From positions 1 through 64,000 of the IMG/VR virus record IMGVR_UViG_3300006484_000008: a stretch of 64,000 bases of DNA. One strand, written 5' to 3'. Position 1 is the stretch's first letter; each line of letters opens with the position of its first letter. The position numbers and the translations under genes are program-made. Origin of the DNA: a virus. Under the pieces are notes generated by a model. It did no database searches and was not told the DNA's origin. It worked only from the letters and a program-made list of their open reading frames with translations. Positions 17,643 to 56,615 of this stretch are shown here, in pieces.

Positions 17643-20600
17643 ATGTCTATATTCAAAAGTACTTTTAAGCCATATGTAATACGTCAGATTAATACTAGGC
17701 AGAATCTTCTATCTGAAGTAAATCGGCCTGTAGACTTTGCACATTATGTATCCAGCAAAGCTCCTTGGATAAGGATGACTTCTTTAGTAGATTATGGTCC
17801 TGTAGGTAACGAAAGTCCTGATCTGGCGAAAAAGTATGTGCTAATGGGAGGTACTTTATATAATAGAGCTGGTACCGATACCTACTTTACTAGAGGAGGG
17901 GTGGGAGGAAAAGGCGCTTCTTATGGAGGAGATTTAGGAACTAATCAATATGGCATCAGACCTATGCCAGGGATAACAAGTATGAAAACTAGGTCACTAG
18001 GAGCTTACGGATCTTTAACAGAGGCTACTATTAAATTCCAAGCATGGGATGTAAAACAGTTAGAAGATCTGACTGTATTATTTATGAGACCTGGATATAA
18101 AGTAGTTTTAGAATGGGGCTGGTCAATGTATTTAGATAGCTCTGTTACAGGAGAGGACTATAAAGCAAAAGCAACTACAAATGCTTTGAATTATACATCT
18201 ACTAAATACAATACAAAGACTATGGTTTTTAATACCATAGATTGCTTTAATACAGGAATAACTCAGGATATCATATACAATCAGCTAGATATTTTGAGAC
18301 ATAGATATTCTGGTAACTATGATGGAGTTTTAGGATCTATAAAGAATTTTGACTATACGTTGATGCCCAATGGATCTTATGAATGTACGACTGTACTGAT
18401 TAGTATAGGAGACGTTATAGATACTATAAGAATGAATGATACTATAGGCGTTAGTATAGGACCTGCAGATATTGCTAAAAGCCAAGATCAAAATATAGAT
18501 CCAGAATCTTTAAACAACATAGATTATAGCGAAATAAAAAGCCAATTTGAATTGTTGATGGATGAATATTGCACTTTGAGTGATAGTAATCCTAGATCAA
18601 ATTCTCAAAACATAACTGCCATAGATGGTGTTATTAAAGATTCTGATAAGCCTTATATAGACAATTTTATATATAAGTATAAATCTGGATTTTCTACAAC
18701 TGCTGCTAATGCAAATCTTACTACAGATCAGGCAGCAAGAGGAGGTTTACAAAAAGCAATGACTTCATGGGAAAGCCCAGACAGGTATAATAAAAATTCA
18801 AATACTAATGATGGGTCTTTATTAGGATCCGGAGTTTCTGATGTAACTAAAGACGAAGAGCAAGCAGTACCGGTATCTCAAGATAACCCAGGAGATAAAA
18901 GATCTTATTATTATATTCAATTTGCATACTTGCTGCACATATTAAATGTGTTTAAAAATGTATTTGCTTCAAAAGATCAAACTCTAGTTGATATAGAAAT
19001 ACCTGCAAACCCATTAAAAAGTGATTCTATATCTAACGGACTATGTCAAGCATCCTATAATTCAATAACCATAGATCCAAATGTAGCTGTAATAAGAAAT
19101 AGTAGAGCAAATTTATTTACAGACATAGAGGGGAACAAAGCATTTAGACCGGAGATATTTAAAACAGAAACAAAATCTGTTACTGGTCCAGTTACAGCAG
19201 ACTATAATCTAAGAGAATACTTATATGAAAATACTAATTTTGGTCAGATAGGAAATATCTACATTAACATAAAAGAGATAGTATCTATATATAAACAAGA
19301 AGCAGTATCAAATAAAGGGTATGTATATTTAGGAAGAGTCATAAGTGAATTATTATCTAGAGTTGCGTTTTCTTTGGGTACTATAAATGACTTTGATAAG
19401 TTTGTAAAGGACAATAAGATAGTTATCATAGATAAGCACTACACTGAATTACCTGCCGATTCTTTATATAGTTCTAAATTTAAGATAAATGTATCAGGAA
19501 ATAACAGCATTGTTAGAAATCATAAGATACAATCTAAGATATTTCCTTCACAAGCTACTATGATAGCCATAGCTGCACAAGATAGAGAGAACGTATCTGC
19601 TATACAGACATCAACATACAATTACTTAAACGAAGGGTTAAAAGATAGGTTGTTTGAGCGTACTAATAATACAAAGACAGATGTTGATAATAAGAATATT
19701 TCTGAAATAGTAGCAAAAAGAAGAAAACTAAGTTCTATATTATTACTTATTCAATATGTAAATAAGTATGTGATGGTAAATAAATCCATAGGGGTTTATT
19801 ATAATTCTAACATAGTAGCTATGAATGGGTATTTGAACACACTTTTAGTAGAAATGGAGGGAGGAACAGACTACAAAGCTGTGGTTCCCATATCTGTTGA
19901 TTTAACTACTGACGGTCTTTCTGGATTGACTATAGGTGAAATATTTACTGTAGATAAAAAAGTATTACCTAAAGACTACGAAGCAAAGCACATTGGTTTT
20001 ATAGTAACTGGTATATCCAATGAAGTAGTTACAAATGGGTGGACTACTAATCTAGTATCTCAAATGTGCATCTTAGATCAGGAAGATAAACAAATAAAGT
20101 CTAAGATAAAAGGAGAAGAAGTATTAAAAGAATTACTTAATGAAGCAGAAAGTAAAAAAATAGAAAACACTACTTCTATTATATACTTTAATATATTGGC
20201 TGCTTTGGTAATAGACTGTTTGTTAAATAGATACCAGATCGATACTACTAGTGGGGCTATAAAAGTAAGAAACATCTCAGAGCCTTTGTATACTAAAACG
20301 GCAATTACAGAATTTTCTAATGGTTTAGTTGATTTTGATTATGTGCTGAAGGACCTTAACAGAGCTTATTTAAAAGCATTCCCCGTAGCTCAGTATGACG
20401 AAAATAAAAAAGTAAGTTTTAGATTAGATAATCTAAATAGCCCTATAGTTCTAACTAAAGTTTTATCTGAACTGTCTTTATATTTTGCCATGTCTACAGC
20501 TAATCAAGAAGTTGGAATTACTTTTAATAATGAGTTCTATAATAAAGTCGGCGCAATTGCAAAAGTAAAAAGAGAGAATGATCCTACAACCTATGAAGCC

Positions 20601-49637: not shown

Positions 49638-50336
49638 ATGCAAATAAAATCATTTAAAAAGCAAAAATCAAACAGAGGCCAAGACTTGAATATAGAAAGA
49701 CAAGAGATTGAAAGGGCCATGCGTGATACAATGTCTAACAAGGCAGCTGCTAAATTTCTTGGAGTATCCTTCACAACCTATAGAAAGTATGCAAGGATGT
49801 ACAGGAATGGAGAAGGCGTAACTCTTTACGACTTGCATAAGAATCAAGCAGCTAAAGGCATACCTAAGTTTAGTAAAAGGAGACATGACAAAGCTTCTAT
49901 TGTAGATATAATGGAAGGTAGAGTGTCAAAGACTTTCGTATCTATTAAGATATTAAAACATCAAATGCTCCAGCATGGCATTATAAAAGAGGAGTGTTGT
50001 AGATGTGGATTTAAAGAACAAAGGATACTGGACTACAAAGTTCCTTTAATTATGAACTTTAGGGATGGGGATAAAAAGAACTGGAAGATAGATAATGTAG
50101 AATTTCTTTGTTATAATTGTTTTTTCTTGTGTGTAGGAGAAGTATTCACGAACAAACAGCTATCTGTTATGGAAGATTACACCGACCTTAGATCTGTAAG
50201 TATTGATCTAGATTTACCAGTAAAGCATGAAGAAGCCATTAAGGAATCAGTTAACTTAGAAAATAAGTATATTTATAAAGAGGAAGAAAGACCTGATAAC
50301 TTTGGTGATGATTTAATATCTACATATAGAAAGTGA
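49638..50336 (+). CDS. HTH plus HNH-like zinc protein
   Basis: A 232-residue protein. Residues about 32-55 (SNKAAAKFLGVSFTTYRKYARMY) form a helix-turn-helix. Residues about 119-175 (CCRCGFKEQRILDYKVPLIM, then NFRDGDKKNWKIDNVEFLCYNC) have the two Cys pairs and N-rich middle of HNH domains, but lack clear catalytic His. It may be a DNA-binding regulator rather than a nuclease. Confidence 0.6.
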   Translation: MQIKSFKKQKSNRGQDLNIERQEIERAMRDTMSNKAAAKFLGVSFTTYRKYARMYRNGEGVTLYDLHKNQAAKGIPKFSKRRHDKASIVDIMEGRVSKTFVSIKILKHQMLQHGIIKEECCRCGFKEQRILDYKVPLIMNFRDGDKKNWKIDNVEFLCYNCFFLCVGEVFTNKQLSVMEDYTDLRSVSIDLDLPVKHEEAIKESVNLENKYIYKEEERPDNFGDDLISTYRK

Positions 50337-51462: not shown

Positions 51463-51843
51463 TCCGCCGAGGTGTCTACAACCTCGCTTCAAACAAAGTG
51501 GAATATAGAGTTTCCCCGATCGACTCTTTAAATAAGGACTGGGGTGGTGGTTAGCTGTCTCCGGACATCCCCTTACTGATCAGCTTGCAGATCAAAACTA
51601 CGGTGCAAATGACGGGGGATCTCCCTCTTGATTGTTAGTACTAAGCGTGTGAGATGCTGGTATTATTGTTCATTGCGAAGACGTGGGTTTGTGGAATCGG
51701 ACCCATCTAGTAGGAATACTAGATTAAAAACTGGATGAATTGCTGGAACTCCTATAACATAGGACAATCAGCAGCCAAGCCTAAAGTACACTTTAGGAAG
51801 GTTCAACGACTAGCGGAGAGATAAAGGTCTCTTAATAACCGCA

Positions 51844-52440
51844 CTAGCGTCCAGCACCCAGATCGGGTGATGATATAGTCTGATCCTCTTGGTAACAAGA
51901 GTTGTAGTTCTTTACGAGGTTGTCTATGAAATCTAAAGTTTCATAATGAGATAGGTTTGATTTCATAAAATTTATTAAAGTAGATACAAATTGTATATTT
52001 CCTTTAATATATCCTTTTGATGAATCAACTCTATCTAAAGAAGCTCTAATAGATGGATGGGTTTTTTTATTATAGACAGGAAGTTCTAGTAGCATTTTGC
52101 TATAAGGACAAGTGCCTTTTTGTAATTCCCATTGATTTTTTAGATCTTCAATTGTTATAGAAAATTCTTTAAATCTCCTTTTACAAGTATTAAAAGTGTA
52201 TTTGTAAGGAGTAAACAAGTCTTCTCTATTTCCAGAATGTTTTGATATGTCATATCTATTTGATCTAGATATATTAGGTCTAACAAGATGTCCATATTTT
52301 AAACTACAAACTTTAGAACAAAAGTTTTTTCTGTTAAGTTTATAGTTCCTGGTCAACTCTGTTGTAGGCTTAGTGGCTATAGATTTGCAAAAATCACAGA
52401 CAAACTCCGTTAGCTTTCTATTTTGTTTATATTTTAACAT
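51844..52440 (-). CDS. HNH homing endonuclease, antisense in group I intron
   Basis: A 198-residue protein read opposite to the tmRNA. N-terminal Cys pairs (CDFCKS and CSKVCS) look like a zinc finger. The C-terminal part has GTCPYSKMLLELP, ASLDRVDSSKGYIKGNIQFVSTLINFMKSNLS, the common pattern of intron-encoded HNH endonucleases. Its end overlaps the S region of the intron core. An ATATTTATATA motif on the minus strand (52451-52461) precedes the start, so it is probably expressed from its own promoter. Confidence 0.82.
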   Translation of the reverse strand: MLKYKQNRKLTEFVCDFCKSIATKPTTELTRNYKLNRKNFCSKVCSLKYGHLVRPNISRSNRYDISKHSGNREDLFTPYKYTFNTCKRRFKEFSITIEDLKNQWELQKGTCPYSKMLLELPVYNKKTHPSIRASLDRVDSSKGYIKGNIQFVSTLINFMKSNLSHYETLDFIDNLVKNYNSCYQEDQTISSPDLGAGR

Positions 52441-53897: not shown

Positions 53898-54615
53898 TGA
53901 CACTCATACCAAACACAAGCAGATAGAACTGCCTGAGTGTGACATTGCTATATTTGCAGGGGATTTAACTTCTGTAGGACATAAACACGAAGTAGAAAGC
54001 TTTCTTAATTGGTATGGTAAACAGAATCAGTGTAAACAAAAAGTATTCATTGCTGGTAACCATGATAAATCATTTGATAGAAAGTTCTTCCATAGCTTTG
54101 AAGATCACGATCTATTCAAAGAAAATGAAGATATTGGCAAGCCTGGGTGGCTGATAGATATGCTAGATCGTGCTAGGGTTATGTTTAATATATATTATCT
54201 TGAAAACGAATCTATTATGTTAGAGGGTTTAAAGATATGGGGGAGTCCTATGACCCCAAGCTTCTACAGGCAGTATTGGGCTTTTAATGCAGATAGGAAC
54301 GAAGAAATAAAATCCTATTGGGATAAGATACCTAAAGATGCTAACATCATCGTGACTCATGGACCAGTCCGAGGTAAGCTAGATTATATACCAGAGAGTA
54401 GTGAATATGTAGGTTGTGTAGATCTTAAAGATAAGATAGAAGAAATTAATCCTATCATGTTTATTTGTGGTCACATTCATTCAGGAAGAGGCATATATAA
54501 TACAGATAAAACGTTGTATGTCAATGCTTCTATAATGGATAACTCTTATAATAAACAAGGTGATCCTATGCTGTTCAATATAAATGTGGATAACTTAAGA
54601 GTTGATTTCTCATAA
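53878..54615 (+). CDS. calcineurin-like metallophosphoesterase
   Basis: The start is set at ATG 53878 (MKVAVFSDTHTKHKQIELPE), not the longer 53848 reading. 245 residues with metal ligands: SDTH, FAGDLTS, AGNHDKSF, VTHGP and CGHIHSGRG. Members act on phosphodiesters or nucleotides. The substrate is not predictable. Confidence 0.87.
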   Translation: MKVAVFSDTHTKHKQIELPECDIAIFAGDLTSVGHKHEVESFLNWYGKQNQCKQKVFIAGNHDKSFDRKFFHSFEDHDLFKENEDIGKPGWLIDMLDRARVMFNIYYLENESIMLEGLKIWGSPMTPSFYRQYWAFNADRNEEIKSYWDKIPKDANIIVTHGPVRGKLDYIPESSEYVGCVDLKDKIEEINPIMFICGHIHSGRGIYNTDKTLYVNASIMDNSYNKQGDPMLFNINVDNLRVDFS

Positions 54616-54667
54616 TAAATTAGGAACTGCTCAAAAAACATTCTTATATTTACATAAGTTCTTTGAA

Positions 54668-54697
54668 ATAAAAAAGGGCCGATAAAAATCGACCCTA
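54668..54697 (-). terminator. terminator for minus-strand holin gene
   Basis: On the minus strand GGGTCGAT and ATCGGCCC pair (8 bp, one wobble) and are followed by TTTTTT. Confidence 0.75.
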
Positions 54698-54722
54698 CTA
54701 TTTAAAAAAACTATTGGTTATA

Positions 54723-54884
54723 CTACTTCTGTTTAGAAGCAATAGACCAACCAGCACCGACAAGTGTCATAATGCCGCCGATAACTTCTTGAAAAAGAAC
54801 GTCATCTACTAATCCTTTAGCTACTACGATTCCGCCAACAAATGTTAAGGCGTGTCTAATAAGTCCGAGTACTTGATCTTTCAT
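54723..54884 (-). CDS. minus-strand small holin-like protein
   Basis: A 53-residue protein, MKDQVLGLIRHALTFVGGIV then VGAGWSIASKQK at the end, with a hydrophobic helix and a hydrophobic segment (EVIGGIMTLVGAGWSIAS). The pattern is that of small Pam3-gp28-type phage holins. GATATTTATAT on the minus strand at 54928-54938 precedes it and a terminator follows. It is too short for a standard ORF cutoff. Confidence 0.65.
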   Translation of the reverse strand: MKDQVLGLIRHALTFVGGIVVAKGLVDDVLFQEVIGGIMTLVGAGWSIASKQK

Positions 54885-54927
54885 TTTATTTGTTTTAAAT
54901 TAAAAAAGATTCATAACATTTGATCAC

Positions 54928-54938
54928 ATATAAATATC
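54928..54938 (-). promoter_or_regulatory. GATATTTATAT motif on minus strand
   Basis: Same direction as the holin-like gene, 43 bases before its ATG. Confidence 0.4.
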
Positions 54939-54954
54939 TAAAAAAAGTAAAATT

Positions 54955-55563
54955 AACTAGCCACTAGGCCGGTGGATCGAAAACCCAGGAATGCCTCTTA
55001 ACAATGCACAAATGTCCTCTAGATCGTTAGCTAGCGGTGAACGCAACTCCACTGGGGAATAGAGTTGCAAAAAGGTTGATTGGAAACTAGGTTAGAAATG
55101 CCAATCGTAAAAGCAGATGTCCACGCACCCATCTTCTGCTTTCCTAAAATGTACTAAGAGAAGCGGTTGAAGCTGTAGTTATTAACTAGGTGGATGAAGG
55201 TTGAAAAAGGGTTTGTAGTAAACAGTGCACCCACCTCCACATTTAACGTTAATAACCAGAAACCCTGAAAGACCCACAGCTTCTCTTACATAGTCAGGTG
55301 GCGGAATTGGTAGACGCTTAAGGCAGGGCAGTATCTCAGTTATACATAAGTCCTATCCATACAGGTTCGAATCCTGTCCTGACTACGCAAAAACAAATGG
55401 CCTAGTTCCTTACCTCGTAAGAGATGGGTTTGAAAGCTTTGACACGCACGACAACTTGGAATGGTGCACGCTGAACAAGCTCTGTGAACGACCACGAAGA
55501 ATACCTCACTGTGCGTAGGTAAGTTTCAAGTTCTTCTGACCGTGGGGAAAGGCCCACTCTTAT
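54955..55563 (+). ncRNA. large structured noncoding RNA enclosing a tRNA-like element
   Basis: No protein gene is found in this stretch, but many perfect inverted repeats are. ACTAGGCC (54963-54970) pairs with GGCCTAGT (55399-55406) and encloses GCAACTC/GAGTTGC (55043/55062), GATTGG/CCAATC (55078/55101), AGCAGA/TCTGCT (55112/55135), TAAGAGAAGC/GCTTCTCTTA (55155/55279), GTTATTAAC/GTTAATAAC (55178/55248), GGTGG/CCACC (55189/55231) and the tRNA-like 55292-55385. GGGTTT (55209) with AAACCC (55260) would form a pseudoknot. A second domain has CTTACC/GGTAAG (55409/55518) and ACGCAC/GTGCGT (55444/55511). The size and association with tRNA resemble phage ornate RNAs such as GOLLD and ROOL, but identity is unproven. 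Confidence 0.65.
55292..55385 (+). tRNA. class II tRNA-like element (Leu-type)
   Basis: AGTCAGG (55292-55298) pairs with CCTGACT (55378-55384). The D arm GCGGAATTGGTAGACGC is Leu-like, and the T arm is ACAGG-TTCGAAT-CCTGT. A 4-bp stem GTAT/ATAC with loop CTCAGTT would give anticodon CAG (Leu), but the region between D arm and T arm is about 8 bases too long and the stem is weak. It may be a real tRNA-Leu or a tRNA-mimic used for RNA processing. Confidence 0.55.
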
Positions 55564-55641
55564 AGTCAGGTGGCGGAACGTTTTTGTACATAATTTTCAT
55601 TCCGTGGTGGTACGTCACAGGTTCGAATCCTGTCCTGACTA
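55564..55641 (+). ncRNA. second tRNA-like element with same acceptor and T arms
   Basis: AGTCAGGTGGCGGAA and ACAGGTTCGAATCCTGT-CCTGACT are the same as in the 55292 element, but the middle (TTTTTGTACATAATTTTCATTC) does not form a standard D and anticodon arm. CGGAA/TTCCG can pair. It looks like a degenerate copy or a processing signal. Confidence 0.5.
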
Positions 55642-55643
55642 CA

Positions 55644-55942
55644 GCTGTTGTTCTTTGACATATAAGGAGAAATAAATTATGGAAACATTATCATTCATTT
55701 TAGGGATAGCGTTTGTGGTAGTTATTGTAATTGCAATAGTTGCTGTTTATGCTTTCGTTAAGGTAAATCAAGTAAAGAAAGAAATTGATGATACTCAAAG
55801 AGACGTATCTCATAACATAGAAGAAGTCTACAGGCACCTAGGAGATCGTGCTGATGAGATTATTCGTATGGTAGATTCACGTTGCGACAAATTAGAAAAC
55901 AAATTAATTAACAAAAAGTAAAATAAGTTAAAGAACAACAGC
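55644..55942 (+). repeat. 13-bp inverted repeat flanking the 80-residue gene
   Basis: GCTGTTGTTCTTT (55644-55656) and AAAGAACAACAGC (55930-55942) are perfect reverse complements, bracketing the 55679-55921 gene and abutting the tRNAs on either side. A long stem of this type could direct RNase III cleavage. Confidence 0.6.
55679..55921 (+). CDS. membrane-anchored coiled-coil protein with a Shine-Dalgarno-like leader
   Basis: An 80-residue protein. Residues 4-28 form a membrane segment (LSFILGIAFVVVIVIAIVAV), followed by a coiled coil (QVKKEIDDTQRDVSHNIEEV). The leader has AAGGAG about 12 bases before ATG, unlike most genes in this window. Confidence 0.6.
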   Translation: METLSFILGIAFVVVIVIAIVAVYAFVKVNQVKKEIDDTQRDVSHNIEEVYRHLGDRADEIIRMVDSRCDKLENKLINKK

Positions 55943-55945
55943 ATT

Positions 55946-56019
55946 GGACCTATAGCTCAGTCGGTTAGAGCATCTGACTCATAATCAGAGGGTCCCTGGT
56001 TCAAGTCCAGGTGGGTCCA
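55946..56019 (+). tRNA. tRNA with anticodon CAT (Met or Ile2)
   Basis: Acceptor GGACCTA pairs with TGGGTCC, D arm AGCTCAGTCGGTTAGAGC, anticodon loop CTCATAA, T arm CCTGG-TTCAAGT-CCAGG, discriminator A at 56019, no encoded CCA. The CAT anticodon may be elongator Met or, after lysidine modification, Ile. Confidence 0.9.
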
Positions 56020-56051
56020 CTAAACATTTAAAAATTTTCAATTATTAAATA

Positions 56052-56615
56052 ATGGCAATACAAATACCAGCACCTAGAGACAGAAATTTATATCTATCAA
56101 AGCAAGTAGATCAATTCAGTATGAATGAGATTGGCAAAGCTATTTTAGAAATAAATAATGACGATGCTTATTTAATAAAGCTGTACGATGTACATAATAT
56201 ATCATATACTCCATCTCCGATAAATCTATATATAGATTCTTACGGAGGTCTTGTGTATCAATGCTTAGGACTTCTCAGCATCATGGAGAAATCAGTGGTA
56301 CCTATTCATACGATAGTTACCGGATGCGCCATGAGCTGCGGGTTCTTAATATCTATATCAGGACATAGAAGATATTCATATGATAAATCTACTTTTTTAT
56401 ATCATCAAGTGGGCGGAGGAGCCGGAGGAAAAGTTCAGGATATGGAAGAAGAGATTATCGAAATGAAAAGACTTCAGACTATCATAGAGACCCATACTAT
56501 TAAGAATACTAAGTTGACTAAAAAAATGCTTAGTGAAAACAAATCTAAGAAGATTGACTGGGTGTTCAATTCTAAGGAAGCTTTGAAGAACGGTATTGTA
56601 GATGAAATAATTTAA
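56052..56615 (+). CDS. ClpP-like serine protease
   Basis: A 187-residue protein. LYIDSYGGLVYQCLGLLSIM, the nucleophile in VTGCAMSCGFLIS (Ser95), the His in FLYHQV (His118), and a likely Asp in KKIDWVF (Asp168) match the ClpP triad. The N-terminal processing region is reduced. Phage ClpP-type proteases can serve head maturation or protein turnover. The nearby tmRNA suggests turnover as another possibility. Confidence 0.85.
   Translation: MAIQIPAPRDRNLYLSKQVDQFSMNEIGKAILEINNDDAYLIKLYDVHNISYTPSPINLYIDSYGGLVYQCLGLLSIMEKSVVPIHTIVTGCAMSCGFLISISGHRRYSYDKSTFLYHQVGGGAGGKVQDMEEEIIEMKRLQTIIETHTIKNTKLTKKMLSENKSKKIDWVFNSKEALKNGIVDEII

Follow-up and report, generated by a model that had tools for sequence, protein, structure and literature searches.

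Locus and genomic setting

A gene-free stretch of about 600 bases (54955-55563) in the 64,000-nucleotide viral DNA analysed here, hereafter the window, was described in an earlier note as a single nested noncoding RNA, closed by an outermost 8-bp helix around a class II tRNA-like element and resembling the GOLLD and ROOL RNAs in size and tRNA association. The question is whether this locus is indeed one large RNA and, if not, what its parts are and what they might do. The window belongs to a virus record (G000, 78,363 bases) encoding tail sheath, family A polymerase and GroEL, and thus to a large tailed phage. Judged by GroEL (55%), the isolated phages closest to it are Flavobacterium phages vB_FspM_immuto. 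Gene prediction gives short frames only between about 54,615 and 55,679. The stretch 54955-55563 holds eight perfect inverted repeats of at least 8 bases, whereas 300 dinucleotide shuffles average 2.25 and never reach eight. The view of the stretch as gene-free and helix-rich, noncoding, structured and tRNA-associated is borne out: there is no gene of note, helices are conserved and tRNA models match. The minimum free energy of the stretch is not better than that of shuffles (z = +0.57 and +2.06), and the case for structured RNA therefore rests on comparison.

The outermost helix, ACTAGGCC/GGCCTAGT, does exist in the window at 54963/55399, but it is not conserved. Homologue L073 has the 3' strand GGCCTAGT and GCAGGCC on the 5' side, and L046 has neither strand in full. 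The 5' strand is instead part of a local covarying hairpin. Neither GOLLD nor ROOL matched, at the gathering score in the window or down to E = 5 in a search of 54600-56100. The locus thus lies outside both families, in line with the earlier remark that membership could not be confirmed and that the RNA may be new. Other Rfam families yielded nothing for the region beyond tRNA (the second tRNA-like element, T2, just over threshold) and a sub-threshold abiF match. In blastn against isolated phages the whole region returned tRNA-Pro only.

A mosaic of structured RNA modules

Homologue comparison divides the locus into the following parts, all on the plus strand.

54956-55070, plus strand: module A, a structured RNA (15 aligned homologues, covarying stems)
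55070-55149, plus strand: module D (about 20 other loci)
55153-55290, plus strand: module M, with an H-type pseudoknot (67 viral stretches, about 90 isolated-phage records)
55291-55385, plus strand: T1, a tRNA-like element (8-bp acceptor TAGTCAGG/CCTGACTA, tRNA-Leu-like D arm, T arm)
55386-55440, plus strand: linker between T1 and module B (96-98% identity in three other contigs, L073, L263 and L304)
55441-55560, plus strand: module B (45-sequence alignment; match to model R1 of 101 bits at 55441-55542)
55563-55641, plus strand: T2, a second tRNA-like element (tRNA model 31.0 bits, over the gathering score of 29)

The locus is almost certainly a mosaic of discrete modules of this kind, and the modules real conserved RNAs. 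They recur in other phages in other orders or singly. Among stretches with an abiF core (see below), four are true homologues of the window RNA (L073, L046, L052 and L023), and their alignment already reveals the shuffling: T1 is absent from L046, a real tRNA-Leu stands in L052 in place of 500 other bases of the window, and module A of L023 runs directly into a different tRNA-like element. Further scans found 94 stretches with module B, 14 with module A and 67 with module M, while D, M, T2 and the linker each have a separate set of other loci. The covariation check in homologues that the earlier note had proposed is passed by the local helices, whereas the single nested RNA gives way to at least five independently distributed modules. 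That reading had recognised neither the abiF core nor T2 nor the modular build, and had ended the feature at 55563, whereas it runs on to 55641.

Two further observations concern the homologues. An extra module, GAGGGGAAAGTAACTTAAAGAGAG...GTGCGACCGCCGGTAA...GTGGGGAGAGACCC, absent from the window, is common to L023, L046 and L073, where it lies 3' of the tRNA-like element. L023, L046 and L052 each encode a tmRNA, whose tag ends in FVGADYAVAA in the first and last of these; the 78 kb of G000 yielded none.

Module A contains an abiF core

54961-54964/54972-54975, 54987-54990/55015-55018, 55019-55022/55031-55034 and 55043-55049/55062-55068, plus strand: stems of module A (alignment)
54987-55018, plus strand: abiF-like hairpin with core GCCUCUUAACAAUGCACAAAU (cmscan, abiF RF03085, 28.8 bits, E 0.011)

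Across 15 sequences, the 22-pair structure of module A has 97.2% of its cells paired and two-sided changes in nine of 22 pairs. Its covariation score is reached in 0 of 500 shuffles, and slid controls are at most 40% paired. The abiF-like hairpin shares with RF03085 the exact 21-nt core GCCUCU-Y-AAC-R-AUGC-N-CAAAU (54993-55013), the AGGA/UCCU outer stem, a covarying closing pair and a bulge between outer and inner stems, with two nucleotides on the 5' side and six on the 3' side. Unlike typical abiF RNAs, it has no adjoining AbiF gene, is set inside a larger conserved RNA scaffold and scores 28.8 bits versus a gathering score of 37 (relatives, 28.0-30.5 bits). The core can also be given as GCCUCU/AUGCNCAAAU. 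In module A as a whole, the abiF-type slot reads GCCUCU...AWGC-NCA, and its closing pair is in most cases U-A or C-G. A short loop closed by U-A is present in seven sequences, and other relatives have longer helices in the slot, such as CTAATTGCCTT..AAGGATTACG. The window is among the module A sequences with the full core including CAAAU; several relatives have longer stems and lack CAAAU, suggesting that not every module A need target AbiF.

The pattern GCCTCTNAACNATGCNCAAAT, which was derived from the abiF match and has 18 fixed positions, was scanned over IMG/VR and found in 90 viral stretches, by estimate far above chance for 18 fixed bases. An Abi_2 domain (PF07751) was found in only two of the roughly 90 viral records with the core, a count from records that are fragments and with a Pfam model that may miss divergent AbiF proteins. 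In both records the gene follows the motif by 23-32 nt, which is the arrangement of a normal AbiF locus. Among the 39 downstream neighbours tested, Abi_2 likewise occurs in two. No Abi_2 was found in the 78 kb of G000; the hairpin does not lie just upstream of a toxin gene, as abiF RNAs do, and is not part of a complete AbiF system. In nearly all of these records the abiF core is a solitary defence-system RNA without its effector gene, as in the case of Racrs. Two records, L059 and L068, contain tandem abiF cores, 38 nt apart and with no Abi_2 in the record, which resemble the two-hairpin antitoxin RCd22.

The simplest reading of an antitoxin RNA that a lytic phage carries without the toxin gene is a decoy, comparable to Racrs in the case of CRISPR. 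By analogy with known abiF RNAs, module A would most likely act in trans, binding and silencing the AbiF (Abi_2, HEPN) RNase toxin of the host. The sub-threshold Rfam score of the window argues against this reading, and we consider the chances about even that module A is an AbiF decoy and that the cluster serves counter-defence. A solved AbiF-RNA complex comes from a Prevotellaceae bacterium, of the phylum to which Flavobacterium also belongs. In Clostridioides difficile, RCd22, an abiF RNA with two hairpins, binds the AbiF toxin directly and so neutralises it in trans, an effect lost when mutations break its stems (PMC12373285). Racrs, phage RNA mimics of defence RNAs, provide the precedent for a solitary phage copy of a defence-system element acting as a decoy (PMC10651486); they mimic CRISPR repeats and have been demonstrated experimentally, whereas for module A we infer such a role. 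The lytic cyanophage S-CREM1 also has an orphan abiF RNA, annotated without an anti-AbiF interpretation (PMC9964418); unlike module A, it is a plain RF03085 match (51.6 bits) outside any modular cluster. A DNA region of Lactococcus phage sk1 is reported, as cited in PMC12737573, to protect phage 712 from AbiF. An abiF-like RNA was not found in sk1, which was set aside as an independent anti-AbiF example.

tRNA-like elements with exchangeable inserts

T1 and T2 have the acceptor, D and T arms of a class II tRNA. The tRNA model matches T1 with 39.6 bits in a local search but leaves it unreported in the whole-window search, where T2 is reported. The class II-like element noted earlier is thus present at 55291-55385, though not enclosed by a conserved outer helix. 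The first 17 nt and last 26 nt of T1 and T2 are identical and their middles differ (repeat families D1 and D2); the T2 insert has 98% identity in L215. ARAGORN calls neither element, and the anticodon stem is absent from both, which rules them out as real tRNAs, whether intron-containing or functional.

A relaxed search of sampled loci yielded at least 256 distinct elements of this family (294 elements in 169 loci), whose uniformity is partly built in, as the search was seeded with T-arm and acceptor sequence. Two or more elements occur in 65 loci, always on the same strand within a locus. The elements are intergenic: eight of 294 fall in open frames of at least 150 aa, versus 141 of 294 random positions. 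A canonical anticodon arm (5-bp stem, 7-nt loop) is found in 17 of 184 elements and in 20 of 184 shuffles. The inserts form 190 clusters, including 153 singletons. In an independent sample, 20 loci carry module B inside the tRNA-like scaffold, with covarying acceptor stems that differ and yet pair (TGGTTGGG/CCCAACCA, TAGCCATG/CATGGCTA, TTGTCAGA/TCTGACAA). Pairing acceptors, the lack of an anticodon arm above chance and 190 insert clusters together mark the elements as tRNA-shaped holders with exchangeable inserts. Module B is one of these inserts.

Module B has a pseudoknot and a self-complementary loop

55444-55449 (ACGCAC)/55511-55516 (GTGCGT), plus strand: pseudoknot of module B (covariation)
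55502-55506 (TACCT)/55517-55521 (AGGTA), plus strand: hairpin (alignment)
55496-55501/55531-55536, plus strand: P3 (alignment)
55464-55469 (GTGCAC), plus strand: palindromic loop (alignment)
55542-55546/55553-55557, plus strand: 3' hairpin (alignment)

In the alignment of 45 sequences, the 24-pair structure of module B has 94.6% of cells paired and two-sided changes in 15 of 24 pairs; none of 500 shuffles reaches its covariation, and slid structures are at most 45% paired. The pseudoknot is nearly invariant, with a compensated change (ACGAGC/GCTCGT) in a Porphyromonas gingivalis phage. The apical loop contains a palindrome of at least 6 nt in 37 of the 45 sequences, versus 10.8 on average and at most 19 in 1000 shuffles. 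The palindromes themselves vary (GTGCAC, AGCGCT, AGTACT, ATCGAT, ACGCGT, ACATGT, ACCGGT, ACTAGT, TCTAGA, GTCGAC, TTGCAA). A loop that is variable yet self-complementary suggests a kissing-loop homodimer.

The exact-core pattern of module B matched once among 84,980 bacterial and archaeal species genomes, and its model matched in two of 190 alphaproteobacterial genomes, a rarity pointing to a mainly viral family. The two alphaproteobacterial copies (L306 428-526 and L313 1501-1603) are diverged and intergenic. No defence gene was recognised beside them, and they gave no clue to function. More generally, the neighbourhoods of B and M yielded no bacterial toxin or defence gene.

Modules D and M

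55078-55083 (GATTGG)/55101-55106 (CCAATC), plus strand: stem of module D
55110-55117/55135-55142, plus strand: stem of module D (AAAGCAGA..TCTGCTTT), a covarying hairpin
55155-55164/55279-55288, plus strand: closing stem of module M (comparison)
55178-55186/55248-55256 and 55188-55193/55231-55236, plus strand: S1 of module M (permutation test)
55209-55214 (GGGTTT)/55260-55265 (AAACCC), plus strand: S2 of module M, which crosses S1

In the covarying hairpin of module D, AAAGCAGA/TCTGCTTT, both sides are kept in the variants AAAGTAGA/TCTACTTT and AAAACAGA/TCTGTTTT. Module M exists in two topologies, and type 2 is a circular permutation, with the CUGUUAGG-S1 strand 3' of the rest. In a permutation test on 19 type 1 and 21 type 2 sequences, S1 strands pair far better within their own sequence than with partner strands taken from other sequences (0 of 1000 permutations for each topology). 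One likely pseudoknot had been noted at the locus; a pseudoknot does exist, and the conserved number is two, one in M and one in B. Module M, which has no Rfam family match, is often directly 3' of a tRNA. It is unannotated in Vibrio phage KVP40 and relatives, Pectobacterium PM2, Rhizobium, Bacillus Eldridge and Listeria P100-type phages. KVP40 was rejected as an exact match; S2 there is GCATT/AATGC, a compensated change.

The tRNA region of vB_FspM_immuto (NC_055915.1, 20115-20331) resembles the window in having module M and a tRNA-like element. M lies there just upstream of a homologue of the membrane-protein gene that follows the window's locus, with the tRNA-like element in between. In contrast to the window, the region has no A, D or B, all three being absent from the 149 kb searched, and its annotation lists a hypothetical protein and an 86-nt tRNA-Cys. 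The annotated tRNA-Cys (20246-20331, L315) has the appearance of a tRNA-like element that carries an insert; the hypothetical gene (20131-20232) overlaps module M.

Possible functions of the cluster

We give an even chance to the following account, in which tRNA-like elements punctuate and hold small RNAs, module A is an orphan anti-AbiF decoy and the cluster is made of recombining modules. T1 and T2, having lost the anticodon arm, retain the tRNA parts recognised by RNase P, RNase Z and the CCA-adding enzyme. They could then serve both as processing punctuation and as a stabilising holder, the central insert being swapped for RNA cargos such as B. On this view, RNase P and RNase Z would process a transcript of the cluster at the borders of the tRNA-like elements and thereby free small RNAs as well as cargos in a tRNA scaffold. 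Modules A, D, M and B would be compact RNAs acting by partner binding: released module A would bind host AbiF, B and M may be analogous inhibitors of other targets and D would likewise bind another partner. Module B may work as a homodimer via its self-complementary loop. A counter-defence role of B, M and D is proposed by functional analogy. A more tentative extension is that large phages carry a modular, recombining RNA arsenal of tRNA-shaped scaffolds, in which exchangeable cargos take the place of the anticodon arm, and free pseudoknotted, dimerising or circularly permuted RNAs, each decoying a different RNA-binding immune effector, with AbiF as the first recognisable target.

Alternatively, the cluster could serve translation or tRNA metabolism, in which case its modules would be RNAs of tRNA arrays with ribosomes, processing enzymes or charged-tRNA factors as binding partners. 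The position of modules A, B and M and of the tRNA-like elements, often within or next to tRNA arrays, fits this idea. In addition, ARAGORN calls a tRNA in 106 of the 170 tRNA-like loci (some of these calls being tRNA-like elements themselves), and T4 rnaC, in a tRNA cluster, has a T-arm-like 3' end (GGGTTCGAATCCC). However, the exact abiF core of A is left unexplained, as are the hypervariable inserts, which look like arms-race turnover, and we regard this alternative as rather unlikely. Improbable, in our view, is that the tRNA-like ends are recombination sites, that is, degenerate tRNA genes in which the conserved acceptor and T arms favour exchange among phages, with cargos that hitchhike or are selfish. 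Identical 17-nt and 26-nt ends around unrelated middles, the mosaic arrangement and the 153 singletons among 190 insert clusters would fit such a role, but the acceptor stems covary (TGGTTGGG/CCCAACCA, TAGCCATG/CATGGCTA), indicating that the tRNA fold itself is selected, and strong selection acts on the structures of insert B and of modules A and M.

Circularly permuted topologies are known for hammerhead and twister ribozymes. The two permuted topologies, together with an invariant core and a pseudoknot, could mean that module M or B is a ribozyme or a ligand-binding RNA that controls or processes the transcript; we hold this to be quite improbable, given that no Rfam ribozyme or riboswitch matches and that there is no consistent position upstream of one gene. 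That the locus is a single large ornate RNA of GOLLD/ROOL type around a tRNA-like element, forming an RNA-only particle, is very improbable. The locus does resemble GOLLD and ROOL (PMC12286853) as a large phage noncoding region by a tRNA island, in its size and pseudoknots and in the B loop, which is suited to intermolecular contact. It differs from them in consisting of separable modules, which match neither family by sequence or by model, even at E = 5; conservation of the outer helix is lacking, and modules that occur singly or reordered contradict the idea.

The T4 species 1 and 2 RNAs (rnaC and rnaD) are stable RNAs that also come from a phage tRNA cluster. The 5' end of rnaC differs from the tRNA-like family, and neither RNA has a match to the motif of module M, nor were the B and abiF motifs found in them. 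The tRNA-like end of rnaC (L381 1409-1547), with T-arm-like CCGGGTTCGAATCCCGG, may make it a distant analogue of the tRNA-like elements.

Novelty and neighbouring elements

Neither RNA decoys nor noncoding phage RNAs next to tRNAs are new as kinds of element. Within Rfam 15, where none of the modules A, D, B and M reaches the threshold of any family, and the open literature, which covers few subscription papers and preprints, the families A, D, B and M appear to be new, as do the tRNA-like scaffold with swapped inserts, a family mostly overlooked by tRNA finders, and abiF cores without Abi_2 across many phages. The presence of unannotated M in the much-studied phages KVP40, P100 and PM2 makes an experimental start available now. 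If A silences AbiF, the orphan abiF RNAs (about 90 viral records) would be a testable class of RNA anti-defence factors, and the swapped tRNA-like inserts a route to further ones. If the modules work as they look, phages would carry interchangeable RNA inhibitors against bacterial immunity. The account, if true, would also help to frame a long-standing question, namely the role of stable noncoding RNAs in phage tRNA clusters.

The surroundings of the locus contain other elements of note. A group I intron lies at 51679-51902 of the window (97 bits), and a homing-endonuclease-like protein is encoded at 49638-50336. The small membrane-protein gene downstream of the locus (55679-55921) has a perfect 13-nt inverted repeat on both sides, at 55644-55656 and 55931-55943 (GCTGTTGTTCTTT/AAAGAACAACAGC). 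In immuto and L052, the homologous gene has different flanking repeats, which are still complementary.
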